Of a stretch of 24,056 bases of DNA, positions 12,878 through 22,536 are shown one piece after another. Source of the stretch: a virus; IMG/VR virus record IMGVR_UViG_3300044641_009002, positions 1 to 24,056 of that record, one strand, 5' to 3'. Position 1 is the stretch's first letter. Each line of letters begins with the position of its first letter. The notes beneath the pieces were generated by a model, which was not told where the DNA came from, made no database searches, and saw only the letters and a list, made by a program, of their open reading frames with translations. The position numbers and the translations under genes were made by a program.

Positions 12878-13279
12878 GTGAACAGCTGTCAAAAAGGAAA
12901 GGTTGGGGAGCGTGAGTGGCGCGACGTCCTCAAGGAAAAAGGCTTCGAAGCCCGCAGGGGCCGCCAGTTCTCAGGTAGCCCGGAAAGCCCGGACGTGGTC
13001 TCCAACCTCCCGTTCCATTTTGAGGTCAAGCGGGTTGAGGCCCTCAACATTGATAAAGCTATGGAACAGGCCCAACGAGATTGTGGCAAGCAAGTGCCTG
13101 TCGTGGCCCATCGAAAAAACAAGCGCCCGTGGCTTGTTACGATGCTTGCGGAAGATTGGTTGGCGCTAGTCCGTGAAAAACACTCCGACGCCTGTAGTTC
13201 TGCACCCGTGGCAGGAGAAAGCGAAGAGCACTTTACTTCAGGCGCTTCGGAACCACTCGATCGCTCTCGATTGTTCTGA
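12878..13279 (+). CDS. Holliday junction resolvase-like / PD-(D/E)XK nuclease
   Basis: This 133-aa protein carries the Hjc-type nuclease pattern: KGKVGEREW with catalytic Glu11, SPDVV with Asp39, then FHFEVKR with Glu49-x-Lys51, and a Gln-containing helix MEQAQRD at 62-68. PVVAHRKNKRPWLVTM completes the fold. It would cut branched DNA during replication or before packaging. GTG at 12878 is chosen because the nuclease motif begins within a few residues and no in-frame ATG exists upstream. The core ends by about residue 100. The last 35 residues are low-complexity and overlap the helicase gene by 107 bases in another frame, an unusually long overlap for this genome. Confidence 0.78.
   Translation: MNSCQKGKVGEREWRDVLKEKGFEARRGRQFSGSPESPDVVSNLPFHFEVKRVEALNIDKAMEQAQRDCGKQVPVVAHRKNKRPWLVTMLAEDWLALVREKHSDACSSAPVAGESEEHFTSGASEPLDRSRLF
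12879..12892. promoter_or_regulatory. Related imperfect palindrome, candidate operator (site 2)
   Basis: TGAACAGCTGTCAA matches site 1 at 11 of 14 positions and keeps the CAG(C/T)TG core and the TGTCAA half. It overlaps the first codons of the resolvase-like gene, so some of the match could be coding constraint. The 58-bp offset from site 1 is consistent with paired operator sites for both transcription directions. Confidence 0.35.
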
Positions 13280-14477
13280 CACCGGAACGGGCAAGACCGT
13301 AACGGCCTGCTCCGTCGCCAAGGATCTTGGCCTTCCGTTTGCGATCATTGCCCCAAAGATTGTTCTGCCAGCGTGGAGGGAGTGGTGTAGCACATTTGGA
13401 CTACAACCTGAATTTGTCCTAAACTACGAAAAGCTCAGGACCGGCAAAACTCAATTCCTCAAAAAACTGGGCAATAAGCAATGGGAATGGACCAATGCTT
13501 CAAAGGACTTTTTGTTTATCTTCGACGAGGTCCACCGGTGCAAGAGCTACAAGTCCCAGAACGGAGCCATGCTCGAAGCGGCCCGTCCGTCCAAAATCCT
13601 AATGCTGTCGGCAACCGCCGCGGGAAGTCCCCTCGACATGCGGTTCACCGGAAGGCTCCTGGGGCTCCACAACGGCGTCAACTTCTTCAGCTGGCTCCAC
13701 AAAAACGGTGTGCTCAAAGCCCCTTGGGGAGGATTCATTTTCCGAGGGGGAAAGAAAGTGCTCGTGGACATCCATTCAAAAATCTTCCCAGAGAAGGGTG
13801 TCCGGGTAAAGATAGACGAGCTTGGAGACGCTTTCCCATCCAACCAGGTCAACGCCCAGACTTTCGACATCTCGCCGAGGATCGGGGAACTTTATGAGGA
13901 GGTCGAAAAAGAAATAGCAGAGTTGAAAAGCAAGGCTTTGAGGGATCGAGACCCGGAAAGCCCGCTTACCAAGCGCCTTCGTATGCGCCAGGAAATCGAG
14001 CTTTTGCGGGTCCCGGTCATGGTGGAGATGGCCGAGGAGTTCATCTCCGAGGGGAAAAGCGTGGTGTGCTTCGTCAACTTCAGGCAGACACTGGACGCGT
14101 TGATGGAAAAGATGGAGAAGTACCAACCAATATACATTGCCGGCGACCAGTCGGAAACTGACCGACAGGATGCGGTCAATGCCTTTCAATCCAACGCCCA
14201 TTATTTTCTGGTTTGCCAAATAGCGGCTGGTGGAGTCGGAGTGAGTCTTCACGATCTAAACGGAAGACCGAGGGTATCCCTCATCAGCCCGACATATTCG
14301 GCTATTGATCTCAAACAGGCTCTTGGCCGGATTCATCGGTCGGGGGCCAAGTCCCCTGCTCTTCAGTACATTTTGTTTGCGGCCAACTCGGTTGAAGAAG
14401 AGGTTAGCCAGTCGGTTCGCAGAAAACTCAAGAACATTGAGTTGCTAAACGATGGTGATCTTCTCACGCACAATTGA
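13173..14477 (+). CDS. SF2 DNA helicase (SNF2/DEAD-like)
   Basis: This 434-aa protein has the full SF2 motif set. There is a Gln-containing N-terminal helix HPWQEKAKSTLL, motif I SDTGTGKT (residues 35-42), motif II DEVH (118-121) and motif III LSATA (145-149). Motif V lies around AAGGVGVSL (351-359) and motif VI is QALGRIHRSG (382-391). The compact size and spacing match SNF2-like phage helicases found beside resolvase-like nucleases. It would remodel forked or recombining DNA. The start is GTG at 13173, the first start codon after an in-frame stop at 13167-13169. It lies inside the nuclease gene and lacks a good RBS, so coupled or low-level translation is likely. Confidence 0.9.
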   Translation: MKNTPTPVVLHPWQEKAKSTLLQALRNHSIALDCSDTGTGKTVTACSVAKDLGLPFAIIAPKIVLPAWREWCSTFGLQPEFVLNYEKLRTGKTQFLKKLGNKQWEWTNASKDFLFIFDEVHRCKSYKSQNGAMLEAARPSKILMLSATAAGSPLDMRFTGRLLGLHNGVNFFSWLHKNGVLKAPWGGFIFRGGKKVLVDIHSKIFPEKGVRVKIDELGDAFPSNQVNAQTFDISPRIGELYEEVEKEIAELKSKALRDRDPESPLTKRLRMRQEIELLRVPVMVEMAEEFISEGKSVVCFVNFRQTLDALMEKMEKYQPIYIAGDQSETDRQDAVNAFQSNAHYFLVCQIAAGGVGVSLHDLNGRPRVSLISPTYSAIDLKQALGRIHRSGAKSPALQYILFAANSVEEEVSQSVRRKLKNIELLNDGDLLTHN

Positions 14478-14478
14478 C

Positions 14479-14506
14479 TTGACGTTTGCGTTTTAAACAT
14501 CACAAT
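14479..14506 (+). promoter_or_regulatory. Weak candidate promoter before split nuclease genes
   Basis: In the 42-bp gap, TTGACG (14479-14484) is followed after 16 bp by CACAAT (14501-14506), which matches 5/6 and 4/6 of the sigma-70 consensus. The predicted start would lie only about 7 nt before the ATG at 14520, which has no Shine-Dalgarno, so the message would be nearly leaderless. The spacing is acceptable but the -10 is weak. Confidence 0.25.
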
Positions 14507-14519
14507 ACGCGCCACGCTA

Positions 14520-14756
14520 ATGGACACTTCACACGCAAGATATAGCCCGAGCACTCTCAAGAGCCGGGAACTCTGCCCGGGGTACGAGCCGAAAAAAGAC
14601 GGCGAGGTCCACATCGTTACACAACGCGGGACCGCCATGCATCAAGCTTGCGAGATCGGCGACTTCGACAACCTTAACGCCGAAGAAACAAAACTTGTCA
14701 TGAAATGCCTGGACTATGTCGAACGCGTCCGGGCGGAGTTATTGACCGATGCTTGA
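14520..14756 (+). CDS. RecB/Cas4-like nuclease, N-terminal part (split gene, ORF A)
   Basis: This 78-aa protein matches the first quarter of DUF2800/Cas4-like PD-(D/E)XK nucleases. It has the start YSPSTLKSRELCPG with Cys19, the single N-terminal ligand of the family's Fe-S cluster, and QRGTAMH with His41, the first catalytic motif. A helix ending DYVERVRAELL follows. It stops at 14756. The remaining motifs are in the next ORF, in the +1 frame, which overlaps by 8 bases. Together the two ORFs total 365 residues, close to the usual single-chain length. It could be a separately translated subunit, a frameshifted product, or a gene broken by mutation or sequencing error. There is no Shine-Dalgarno at the ATG. 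Confidence 0.7.
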   Translation: MDTSHARYSPSTLKSRELCPGYEPKKDGEVHIVTQRGTAMHQACEIGDFDNLNAEETKLVMKCLDYVERVRAELLTDA

Positions 14757-15612
14757 TCTAAAGGAAATCAAACTTGAAGTCTTTGATCAATGGGGGTTTG
14801 TCGACCGCCTGCTCATTCGCGGCAACAAAGCCCACCTCATTGACTACAAATTTGGATTCAATCCTGTCGATGACGCGGAGCACAACGCTCAAATGTGGGC
14901 TTATACGCTCGGGGTTTTTGACAAGTACGACTACATCACCGATGTCACCGTCCATGTCCTACAACCCAGACTCGACCTTATCTTCACCCACACATTCAAT
15001 CGGGAATCCGATTATGGGCGGATGGAAAAACGAATAAAAGGAATCATAGACAAATGCAAAAATCATACCGAAGCCGATTACACCCCCGGAGACCAATGCG
15101 TGTTCTGCGCGAAACTGGCCGACTGCCCAGCAGTCCACGGAGCCACCATGCAGATCGTTAAAGCATATGACCTGGCACACGACGCGCAGTTGCCGGAACT
15201 ATTTCATCCAAGCCAGTTGGCTACACCCGAACGTCGCGCTCAGGCGCACCGGATCGCGATGGTCATGGAGGCTTGGTGTTCCAGCGTCCGCAAGCACAAT
15301 CTGGAGTTTGCTAAGGAAGGCGGTGAAATTCCCGGTTACGGCCTCAAGGAGATTCAAGGCCGAAGGGAAATAAAAGATCCGCAAAAGGCATGGGAACTTG
15401 TGAAGGAAAAACTCACCCCGGAGGAATTTAGTTCCGCTTGTGAGGTTAAGTTTACGGATTTGGCCGATCTGGTTGCGGCCAAGGCGCCTCGCGGTCAGAA
15501 GACCGTGGCGAAAGAACAACTGGAAGACGCGCTGATCGAAGCGGAAGCAATGACGCGAGGTGAGCCGTCTTATCAACTAAGAAAAACTAAAGAGATAAAA
15601 CAAATAAAATGA
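14749..15612 (+). CDS. RecB/Cas4-like nuclease, catalytic C-terminal part (split gene, ORF B)
   Basis: This 287-aa protein holds the rest of the DUF2800-like nuclease: KLEVFDQWGFVDRL with Glu10 and Asp19, IDYKFG with Asp32-x-Lys34, and the NAQMWAY helix (46-52) typical of RecB-family motif IV. The C-terminal Fe-S ligands are CVFCAKLADC, with Cys117, Cys120 and Cys126 in Cx2Cx5C spacing. The expected His motif and first cysteine are missing here because they lie in ORF A. A GGAG site lies 10 bases before the ATG at 14749, so independent or coupled initiation is possible. In related phages this nuclease sits with an ssDNA-binding protein and family A polymerase, as here, and is thought to act in end resection or recombination. 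Confidence 0.8.
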   Translation: MLDLKEIKLEVFDQWGFVDRLLIRGNKAHLIDYKFGFNPVDDAEHNAQMWAYTLGVFDKYDYITDVTVHVLQPRLDLIFTHTFNRESDYGRMEKRIKGIIDKCKNHTEADYTPGDQCVFCAKLADCPAVHGATMQIVKAYDLAHDAQLPELFHPSQLATPERRAQAHRIAMVMEAWCSSVRKHNLEFAKEGGEIPGYGLKEIQGRREIKDPQKAWELVKEKLTPEEFSSACEVKFTDLADLVAAKAPRGQKTVAKEQLEDALIEAEAMTRGEPSYQLRKTKEIKQIK

Positions 15613-16325
15613 AGACATCATTCAGTAAGAAAGACAAAGAAGCGGCGGAACAGAAGGAAACTCAGGCTCTGGCGGCTGTGGAGAGCAAAGCTCCCGCAAT
15701 TGCCAACCGCAACTCGGCGGTCGATGGCGAATTCAAAGCCTCCGACTTCCTGATCCCGCGGATCAACCTGGTCGGCAAGACCGGGAACCTGAGCAACAAC
15801 TTCCAGCCGGGCTCCTTCGTCTTCAACAAAGAGCTCGTCGTTGGGTCGAAAGACGCCCCAATGGAGACGATCATCACTCACATCCAGAAGAAGTACATCC
15901 AGGAGATCCCGTACGGAACCGATGTGATCCCGAAGATTTTCGCCTCGCAAGCCGAGGTGGAAGCTGCCGGAGGAACCCTGGACATCACCGAGGGCGACGA
16001 TACGGACCGTTACATTCCGTTTCTCGTCCTCACTCTCCTGGTTGCGGAACCCAAGGACAAGAACCCTATCTTTTCCTTCGAGGGACCGGACAAGAAGAAC
16101 TACGCCCTGGCCCAGTACAACCTCACCAAGAGTGCGTACCGTGGCGCGGGTCGTCAGTTGCTGACCGACAGCCAGACCGTCCTGCGCGGTGCGCTCACCA
16201 AGGGCCGCTACCACGTTGGAAGCAAGCTGAACACGAACTCGATGGGCAGCTGGTTTACGCCCACGTTCAAGCTGGCCGGAACCAACAACGAAGAGTTCCA
16301 GGCTTGGGCCTCGAGCTTGGTCTAA
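15609..16325 (+). CDS. Putative ssDNA-binding protein of the replication module
   Basis: This 238-aa protein has a charged N-terminal tail (about residues 1-35, Lys/Glu/Ala-rich). A mixed beta domain follows, starting at SDFLIPRINLVGKTGNL, with FVFNKELVVG, PMETIITHIQKKYI and FLVLTLLVAEP. It ends in SWFTPTFKLAGTNN and a short helix. There is no enzyme motif or Walker site. It starts with an ATGA overlap with the nuclease gene. In phages with DUF2800-type nucleases and family A polymerases this position is usually filled by an ssDNA-binding (DUF2815/gp2.5-like) protein. The role here is inferred from that synteny and the beta-rich character, and the sequence family is not confirmed. The C-terminus is not acidic, unlike gp2.5. 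Confidence 0.45.
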   Translation: MKTSFSKKDKEAAEQKETQALAAVESKAPAIANRNSAVDGEFKASDFLIPRINLVGKTGNLSNNFQPGSFVFNKELVVGSKDAPMETIITHIQKKYIQEIPYGTDVIPKIFASQAEVEAAGGTLDITEGDDTDRYIPFLVLTLLVAEPKDKNPIFSFEGPDKKNYALAQYNLTKSAYRGAGRQLLTDSQTVLRGALTKGRYHVGSKLNTNSMGSWFTPTFKLAGTNNEEFQAWASSLV

Positions 16326-17114: not shown

Positions 17115-17241
17115 GCTGGCTGACGAACTTGTTGCCGCTTTGGATTACCTGTTGCAGGAGGGATTTATATGTTTGACAGACCGGAAGGAACCCACGATTG
17201 TTTTAAGCAAGGAGGTAGCCACATGGAACTTCAGGAAATAG
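17092..17241 (+). CDS. Possible 49-aa protein
   Basis: This open frame encodes MPRNASDKLADELVAALDYL, then LQEGFICLTDRKEPTIVLSKEVATWNF. The composition is protein-like: an amphipathic helix followed by a strand-like segment. However, there is no RBS, and it overlaps genes at both ends (23 bases with the basic gene, 73 with the coiled-coil gene). It also contains the RBS elements of the downstream gene. It could be a real overlapping gene or chance. Confidence 0.3.
   Translation: MPRNASDKLADELVAALDYLLQEGFICLTDRKEPTIVLSKEVATWNFRK
17156..17216 (+). promoter_or_regulatory. Two strong ribosome binding sites for two in-frame starts
   Basis: AGGAGGG (17156-17162) lies 6 nt before the ATG at 17169. 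AAGGAGGT (17209-17216), a full match to the 16S anti-Shine-Dalgarno, lies 6 nt before the ATG at 17223. Both ATGs are in the same frame, 18 codons apart, so the coiled-coil gene may have two translation starts. Confidence 0.6.
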
Positions 17242-17534
17242 TCGGGAAAGAAGATTACGAAAAGACCGACCATAATCGCCGGAGTAGTCTCCATCGCCTC
17301 CACCAGTTTTACTGCCGGGTCGTTGATCTGGCGGAAGCCAACCACGTGACTGCCGCTCGCCTTGTGGAGGAGAACGGTCGTCTAGAGAACGAGAACGAAG
17401 GTCTGAGGGATCTCTGCCAGGAGCTCCTCTCCGACATGGCCGACCTCGAGAAGGAATGCTCGGAGTTCCGACGCAAGGTCCGGTCCGCCGTCCTCGAATT
17501 AACACCACACCAGAAAGAGAACAAACATGACTGA
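17169..17534 (+). CDS. Coiled-coil protein with two possible starts
   Basis: This 121-aa protein (103 aa from the second start at 17223) has a long coiled coil from about residue 60 to 112. Heptad Leu/Glu repeats are seen in ARLVEENGRLENENEGL and MADLEKECSEF. The short N-terminal extension MFDRPEGTHDCFKQGGSH is present only from the first start. There is no DNA-binding or enzyme motif that I can name. The last 8 bases overlap the next gene. It lies among small plus-strand genes before the polymerase, so a role in early takeover or as a replication accessory is plausible but unproven. Confidence 0.6.
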   Translation: MFDRPEGTHDCFKQGGSHMELQEIVGKEDYEKTDHNRRSSLHRLHQFYCRVVDLAEANHVTAARLVEENGRLENENEGLRDLCQELLSDMADLEKECSEFRRKVRSAVLELTPHQKENKHD

Positions 17535-17829
17535 AATAGTAATCAGAATCGAACATAATCAAAAAGACGAAAAACTTAACATCAGCGTTGTCCCGCGTGA
17601 CAACGAGCCGACCCTTGTGGAAAAGGATGTTTTCCTGGGGTTGATGCCCCTCATCCATAGTCTTTTGTCCCAAATTCTTGGCCAGGAAGGATTCAAGAAT
17701 CCGGATAAAAGCGACCTTGTCGACAAGCAAGGTAACTCCCTCAGCGAGGACTACATGGTCTCCAACGGGATGATTGAACCCGAAGGCGGCGCTGAGATTG
17801 TCGATCCCAAAACCGGCGACAGAAAATGA
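17527..17829 (+). CDS. Hypothetical protein
   Basis: This 100-aa protein begins with a beta-prone segment (TEIVIRIEH, then LNISVVP), followed by an amphipathic helix with hydrophobic residues (FLGLMPLIHSLLSQILG). It ends in an acidic, Gly-rich tail (EPEGGAEIVDPKTGDRK). No TM segment, signal peptide or catalytic motif is evident. It overlaps its upstream gene by 8 bases and its downstream gene by an ATGA junction. The family is not recognised. Confidence 0.55.
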   Translation: MTEIVIRIEHNQKDEKLNISVVPRDNEPTLVEKDVFLGLMPLIHSLLSQILGQEGFKNPDKSDLVDKQGNSLSEDYMVSNGMIEPEGGAEIVDPKTGDRK

Positions 17830-18119
17830 CCCGAACTTCAGCCAGTTACGCACTGGCCGAGGAGTTCATGGTGATCCCTTACCCATTCGTGGGTGAGGGG
17901 AGGGACTCAATCGAGGCCGAATACATGGTGCTGCTGGAAAGCGGCATTCACCCTAAAGAGATTTCGGATATGATCCTTGACGCCCTCAAGATCCTATTGA
18001 ACGCCAGGTTAAAGACGAAGAACAATAACGAAAAATATACAAAATTGACAAACCAAATATCCGACATGCTTGGGAGACTTTTGGTTTTCGAGGAACTCAT
18101 ACGCGGAGACAAAAAATGA
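17826..18119 (+). CDS. Hypothetical helical protein
   Basis: This 97-aa protein is mostly helical. It has an N-terminal ALAEEFMVIPYPF stretch, then IEAEYMVLLESGIHPKEISDMILDALKILL, a Lys/Asn-rich turn and a final amphipathic helix (ISDMLGRLLVFEELI). It starts in an ATGA overlap and ends in another with the DNA polymerase gene, so it is probably made with the polymerase. The family is not recognised and there is no catalytic motif. The codon usage in the 18000-18060 stretch looks more AT-rich than in its neighbours. Confidence 0.55.
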   Translation: MTRTSASYALAEEFMVIPYPFVGEGRDSIEAEYMVLLESGIHPKEISDMILDALKILLNARLKTKNNNEKYTKLTNQISDMLGRLLVFEELIRGDKK

Positions 18120-22041: not shown

Positions 22042-22536
22042 GTGGAAACGAATGCCAAGAAGTCTTTCGACCAGCTGGTTGAATCCTACCGGGAACATCT
22101 TTCCCGCGGGGTCTCCAATCCTGATCTCGAACTAAAGCAATCATCCATCCCGGATGCCGGGCTGGGTGTGTTTGCCAAGCGCGACTTCTCGGAGTTCGAC
22201 ATCGTCGAGTTCTGCCACTGCGTGATTTTGGACTGGCGCAGGAAGTATGTGCGCGACCCCAGGATCGAGCAGTACGCCTATTCGCCCAAGTGCGAGTGCG
22301 AGGAGTGCAAGAAGCACGGCGCCCACATCGTTTTGCCCATGGGTTTTGGCATGGCCTACAACTCGGCCGAGTCCATGGAAGCCTCCAATTGCAGTTTTGC
22401 CATCGTGCCGGGACACCGGATGATGGCCTTCATCGCCAGAAAGCCCATCAAGGCGGGTGATGAAATCGTGACGTGGTGGGGTCAGGCGTATTTCGACAAG
22501 TGGTGCAAGAGGAAAGATGAGCCAGCGGCCCAATGA
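22042..22536 (+). CDS. SET-domain protein (putative protein-lysine methyltransferase)
   Basis: This 164-aa protein begins at GTG 22042, 6 bases after the primase stop. SET features in order are SIPDAGLGVFAKRDF (GLG at 40-42, SAM-binding motif I), FCHCVI, and a Cys cluster PKCECEECKKH (82-92) that could bind zinc. YNSAESMEASNC (106-117) lies at the place of the usual NHS-pN motif, with Asn107-Ser108 and Asn116 but without the His. KAGDEIVTWWGQAYF (137-151) lies at the place of motif IV. A single SET domain without other domains suggests methylation of a phage or host protein lysine. The missing His makes catalytic activity uncertain. It is embedded in the plus-strand operon with an ATGA overlap to the next gene. 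Confidence 0.75.
   Translation: METNAKKSFDQLVESYREHLSRGVSNPDLELKQSSIPDAGLGVFAKRDFSEFDIVEFCHCVILDWRRKYVRDPRIEQYAYSPKCECEECKKHGAHIVLPMGFGMAYNSAESMEASNCSFAIVPGHRMMAFIARKPIKAGDEIVTWWGQAYFDKWCKRKDEPAAQ

Follow-up and report, generated by a model that had tools for sequence, protein, structure and literature searches.

Does a nuclease whose iron-sulfur ligands and active-site residues lie on two overlapping reading frames represent one broken gene or an enzyme made of two chains? The question is raised by a 24,056-base virus record, here called the window, which carries the tailed-phage genes for a terminase, a helicase, a RusA-like resolvase, and a family A DNA polymerase. A first-pass annotation of this record had described a Cas4/RecB-like nuclease divided over two overlapping open reading frames, here ORF A and ORF B (Table 1), and had left open whether this reflects a two-subunit enzyme made by coupled translation, the product of a +1 frameshift, or a sequencing or assembly error.

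The two ORFs, their overlap, and their motifs were present as that annotation claimed. The overlap is 8 nt long and places ORF B in the +1 frame relative to ORF A, and a TGA at 14743 closes the ORF B frame just upstream. The assignment of Cys19 and RGTAMH to ORF A and of the D/E, D-x-K, and Cys117/120/126 parts to ORF B held up as well: ORF B contains GFVD (D19), D32-x-K34, Q48xxxY52, and the 3 cysteines, so that the motif I His is on ORF A and the motif II and III residues and the QxxxY motif are on ORF B. All of these residues (Cys19 and His41 on ORF A; D19, D32, K34, Q48, Y52, and Cys117/120/126 on ORF B) are invariant in the alignment. Also in agreement with the earlier description, the combined length of the two ORFs is like that of a normal single chain, the natural single-chain sister protein having 370 aa, and ORF B has a separate GGAG site (14735–14738) besides the ATGCTTGA overlap.

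Table 1. Features of the nuclease locus and its surroundings (coordinates refer to the window)
Feature	Position	Strand	Remarks
SF2-type helicase gene	13173..14477	+	Upstream; phrog_62, E = 1.5e-48; fused to the nuclease in L027-L037 and L067
Promoter-like TTGACG-16-CACAAT	14479..14506	+	Consensus scan; just before ORF A
ORF A	14520..14756	+	78 aa; helical N-terminal part of the nuclease, Cys19 and RGTAMH (His41)
CGGAG	14734..14738	+	Shine-Dalgarno-like site for ORF B, inside ORF A
ATGCTTGA	14749..14756	+	ORF B start and ORF A stop; identical in 25/25 relatives and the window
ORF B	14749..15612	+	287 aa; nuclease core and C-terminal part
Downstream conserved gene	15609..16325	+	ATGA overlap with ORF B

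Family and predicted fold of the divided nuclease

Profile searches assigned ORF B to DUF2800 (PF10926; E = 1.8e-27, 96.9 bits against a curated cut-off of 21) and aligned it with positions 200-436 of the phrog_69 exonuclease profile (E = 2.7e-32). ORF A produced a weak match to positions 83-146 of the same phrog_69 profile (E = 9e-4). Because of these matches, we consider that the two ORFs follow one another within a single family, ORF A supplying the N-terminal and ORF B the C-terminal portion of one predicted DUF2800/phrog_69 Cas4-RecB-like exonuclease. The PD-(D/E)XK residues and the motif I His expected of such an enzyme are present over the two ORFs taken together. The cysteines follow the four-cysteine Cas4 arrangement, with Cys19 on ORF A and Cys117/120/126 on ORF B spaced as C-x2-C-x5-C; Cas4 proteins have one N-terminal and 3 C-terminal cysteines (PMC4176176). 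By analogy with Cas4, Cys19 of ORF A would be the first Fe-S ligand. No Cas4 family model in Pfam or NCBIfam matched, the sequence search of solved structures returned nothing significant, and known phage records contained no match for ORF A.

The structure of a natural single-chain relative (L058) was modelled using AlphaFold2, which gave a mean pLDDT of 73.8 with most of the nuclease core at 84-94. This model has a helix at residues 60-83, a loop at 84-86, and a strand at 87-97, and the junction between ORF A and ORF B aligns with that loop, where the final N-terminal helix gives way to the first strand of the core. Its best matches among solved structures were the Ago-associated Cas4 ACE1, the Cas4 of the Cas4-Cas1-Cas2 complex, AdnAB, and MGME1, and its best viral matches were DUF2800 proteins. 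Given the modest TM-scores, we take the model as backing a Cas4/RecB-like fold class but not the details of the structure.

The window nuclease resembles several known systems in part. It shares with the DUF2800 (PF10926)/phrog_69 phage exonucleases, such as APSE-1 P51, the sequence family, the catalytic motifs, the cysteine pattern in aligned relatives, and the place before an ssDNA-binding-type gene, but those that we checked are single chains, a form found neither in the window, where there are two overlapping genes, nor in its 25 close relatives. Cas4 nucleases (SSO0001, Pcal_0546, ACE1) have the RecB-like fold class and the 1+3 cysteines in common with it, but they consist of one chain and the window nuclease is too weakly similar to them in sequence for membership. 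In AdnAB, AddAB, and UvrD-Cas4, a RecB-type nuclease is linked to a helicase, and one clade of relatives (L027-L037) is such a fusion, whereas the window helicase belongs to another superfamily and has a gene of its own, and the nuclease itself is split.

Conservation and history of the split

A scan of IMG/VR identified 25 close relatives from 22 metagenomes that are 87-100% identical to the window in ORF B. Each carries the two ORFs and shares the junction CGGAG-yTR-NNN-ACC-RATGCTTGA-Y, and the overlap measures -8 nt in all 26 sequences (the relatives and the window). Because the junction is identical in 25/25 close relatives, the split is far above chance. Many pairs of relatives are only 70-80% identical in DNA and saturated at synonymous sites; dN/dS is approximately 0.04 for ORF A and 0.03 for ORF B, with dS saturated, and Cys19 and His41 of ORF A are kept in every copy. 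Judged from these alignments, the split is real, a fixed gene form under selection. Purifying selection on ORF A alone does not tell two chains from one. A sequencing or assembly error, or a decaying pseudogene, is scarcely credible: shifting the frame at the junction would make the protein whole again, but the same junction occurs in relatives from 22 metagenomes whose synonymous sites are saturated, and purifying selection on both ORFs is strong. The error option of the first-pass annotation is thereby excluded. That annotation had also envisaged that close relatives might all encode an intact fused gene; instead, every close relative has the split, and the intact form appears only at 59% identity and beyond.

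The search for fused and split homologues, which had been proposed at the same time, returned a single-chain sister clade and a helicase-fused distant clade besides the 25 split relatives. In the sister clade (59% identity; 15 contigs, namely L058-L060 and 12 contigs found by DNA pattern), the nuclease is one intact gene, and the L058 copy shares ATGCCTGA with the stop of the helicase gene. In the distant clade (12 contigs, L027-L037 and L067; approximately 32-36% identity, and 49% for one partial match), the helicase, a Pro/Ala-rich linker, and the nuclease form one ORF. No relatives were found by search in bacterial genomes. Taken most simply, these clades point to an ancestral single chain and a derived split. 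Owing to very short inner branches, the split clade does not form one resolved branch in the tree, and a single origin of the split fits the tree without being proven by it.

APSE-1 P51, the one known-phage DUF2800 relative that we checked in detail, is a single chain. The pair P51 and P52 of APSE-1 was considered as a precedent for the split and rejected, P52 being an opposite-strand ORF. Searches of the open-access literature yielded no description of a nuclease of the Cas4 or DUF2800 type divided in such a way. Judged by its sequence family the enzyme is a known one, and the two-gene form is new.

Translation across the junction

The GGAG of ORF B lies 10 nt before the ATG at 14749, and its predicted duplex with the 16S rRNA tail amounts to -6.1 kcal/mol versus +1.9 for ORF A, placing the ORF B pairing among the stronger ones predicted in the window phage. 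The wobble bases of the GGAG are invariant among the 23 distinct sequences, and the site is absent from the single-chain sister clade. Overlaps of 8 nt recur in the lineage of this phage: ATGACTGA joins two other genes of the window at 17527-17534, and ATGCCTGA joins the helicase and nuclease genes of L058. Among 2.66 million gene pairs, the commonest overlaps were -4, -1, and -8 nt, coupling by termination-reinitiation needs short distances of this kind, and pairs with such overlaps were enriched for subunits of one complex (PMC10666635). The junction falls within the range of -8 to +10 nt in one direction that this study gives for termination-reinitiation, and reinitiation is often raised by a Shine-Dalgarno site (PMC6728339).

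Third positions of ORF A are invariant at 5 of 6 sites at the junction versus 3 of 67 elsewhere, in a test made after the region had been seen. One relative (L011) has the Asp codon changed to AAT and keeps the ATG. Initiation by itself would not require the degree of conservation seen in the exact TGA and in the C of ACC, a point against the two-chain reading, and the invariance of that C is explained by none of the models considered. A further point against it is that invariant third-position runs also occur near the ORF B end. A conserved RNA structure around the junction received no support (of 35 pairs, only 2 had changed in both partners; covariation term of -1.55).

These data bear on the two options that remain. 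Two chains made by coupled translation is the best supported reading, on the strength of the kept split, the purifying selection, the single-chain relatives, a break that falls on a predicted loop, and the signals for translation; the case for a +1 shift is weaker. A programmed +1 ribosomal frameshift at GCU_UGA_Y would entail a one-base slip at a slow UGA, giving a 363-aa nuclease like the sister proteins, possibly beside free ORF B product. The frames can be joined only at the ATGCTTGA stretch (GCT_TGA_Y), where TGAY read as Asp would generate a seamless product in register with the single-chain relatives, and both the TGA and the preceding GCT are invariant; with the exact TGA conserved and the product seamless, a shift is possible. 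We nevertheless consider it unlikely when set against the prfB +1 site, which has CUU_UGA, an adjacent Shine-Dalgarno element, and a C favoured after the stop (PMC13245932; PMC6321510). The junction is like E. coli prfB in having a sense codon followed by UGA, a +1 continuation, and an upstream Shine-Dalgarno-like element, but its P codon is the non-slippery GCU, which by a pairing argument re-pairs poorly as CUU in the +1 frame, the GGAG is 12 and not 3 nt away, and C or T follows the stop equally. The slippery codon before UGA and the adjacent Shine-Dalgarno element of a prfB-type site are thus both missing. Moreover, a conserved stimulatory structure was not found at the junction, and a frameshift does not predict a conserved ATG with initiation-type Shine-Dalgarno spacing.

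Use of both modes, in which ORF A and ORF B would mostly be made separately and a small share of A-B protein would arise by frameshift or readthrough, seems more improbable still. The sequence features that favour a +1 shift favour it too, and programmed shifting and coupling are found together in some clusters of prokaryotic frame transitions (review, PMC3711429), but nothing specific at the locus requires them.

From this evidence, we infer that a single-chain nuclease has probably been divided into two subunits made by coupled translation, which would assemble, share one cluster, and be active together. An ancestral single-chain DUF2800-type Cas4/RecB-like exonuclease would have been divided into two genes in the phage clade of the window, and ORF A and ORF B would be translated as separate chains from one mRNA. 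Ribosomes ending ORF A at the TGA would restart at the overlapping ATG, aided by the GGAG, and this restart would produce the two chains together, able to assemble on the spot. ORF A would dock on ORF B as an N-terminal helical layer that provides the His of motif I and the first cysteine of the cluster, and ORF B would provide the acidic residues, the Lys, and 3 cysteines. The rebuilt nuclease may trim DNA ends beside the helicase and the probable ssDNA-binding protein encoded downstream, with a putative role in phage recombination or replication. We incline, by a small margin, to the further view that one Fe-S cluster and one active site are built across two separately translated chains and have long been kept so in this phage clade, the cluster stapling the subunits and perhaps serving as an assembly switch.

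Should ORF A and ORF B indeed be made as separate chains, the Fe-S "staple" known from Cas4-like nucleases would here hold two proteins and not two ends of one, and the purpose of the cluster (stability, assembly, or regulation) could be tested by mixing the halves. The relatives form a natural series in which helicase and nuclease are one chain, the nuclease is alone, or the nuclease is in two. Were a frameshift used instead, GCU_UGA would stand out as an atypical +1 site. In both cases, automatic annotation might overlook ORF A or label the gene broken.

Neighbouring genes and further observations

The promoter-like sequence before ORF A is not above chance in the window, and both of its hexamers are kept in nearly all relatives. 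It lies so near the ORF A start that a transcript from it would be almost leaderless, and no Shine-Dalgarno site precedes ORF A. The gene downstream of ORF B is conserved 3' of the nuclease in all three clades; profile searches gave no family match for it and its structural model is unusable (pLDDT 36). Its product is possibly an ssDNA-binding partner or annealing protein, by position only.

Near the end of ORF B (15457-15520), third positions are almost invariant in relatives that are saturated elsewhere. This stretch contains CGCGGTC-AGAA-GACCGTG, approximately 95 nt before the next gene, and its folding is no better than that of shuffled sequences. The invariance may reflect a cis element or a recent exchange. 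Farther along the window, a chain of small genes at 17169-18119 runs up to the DNA polymerase with overlaps of 8, 4, and 4 nt, which suggests heavy use of translational coupling. Finally, a phage gene at 22042-22536 encodes a SET domain (PF00856, E = 3e-8), which is usually a lysine methyltransferase domain.
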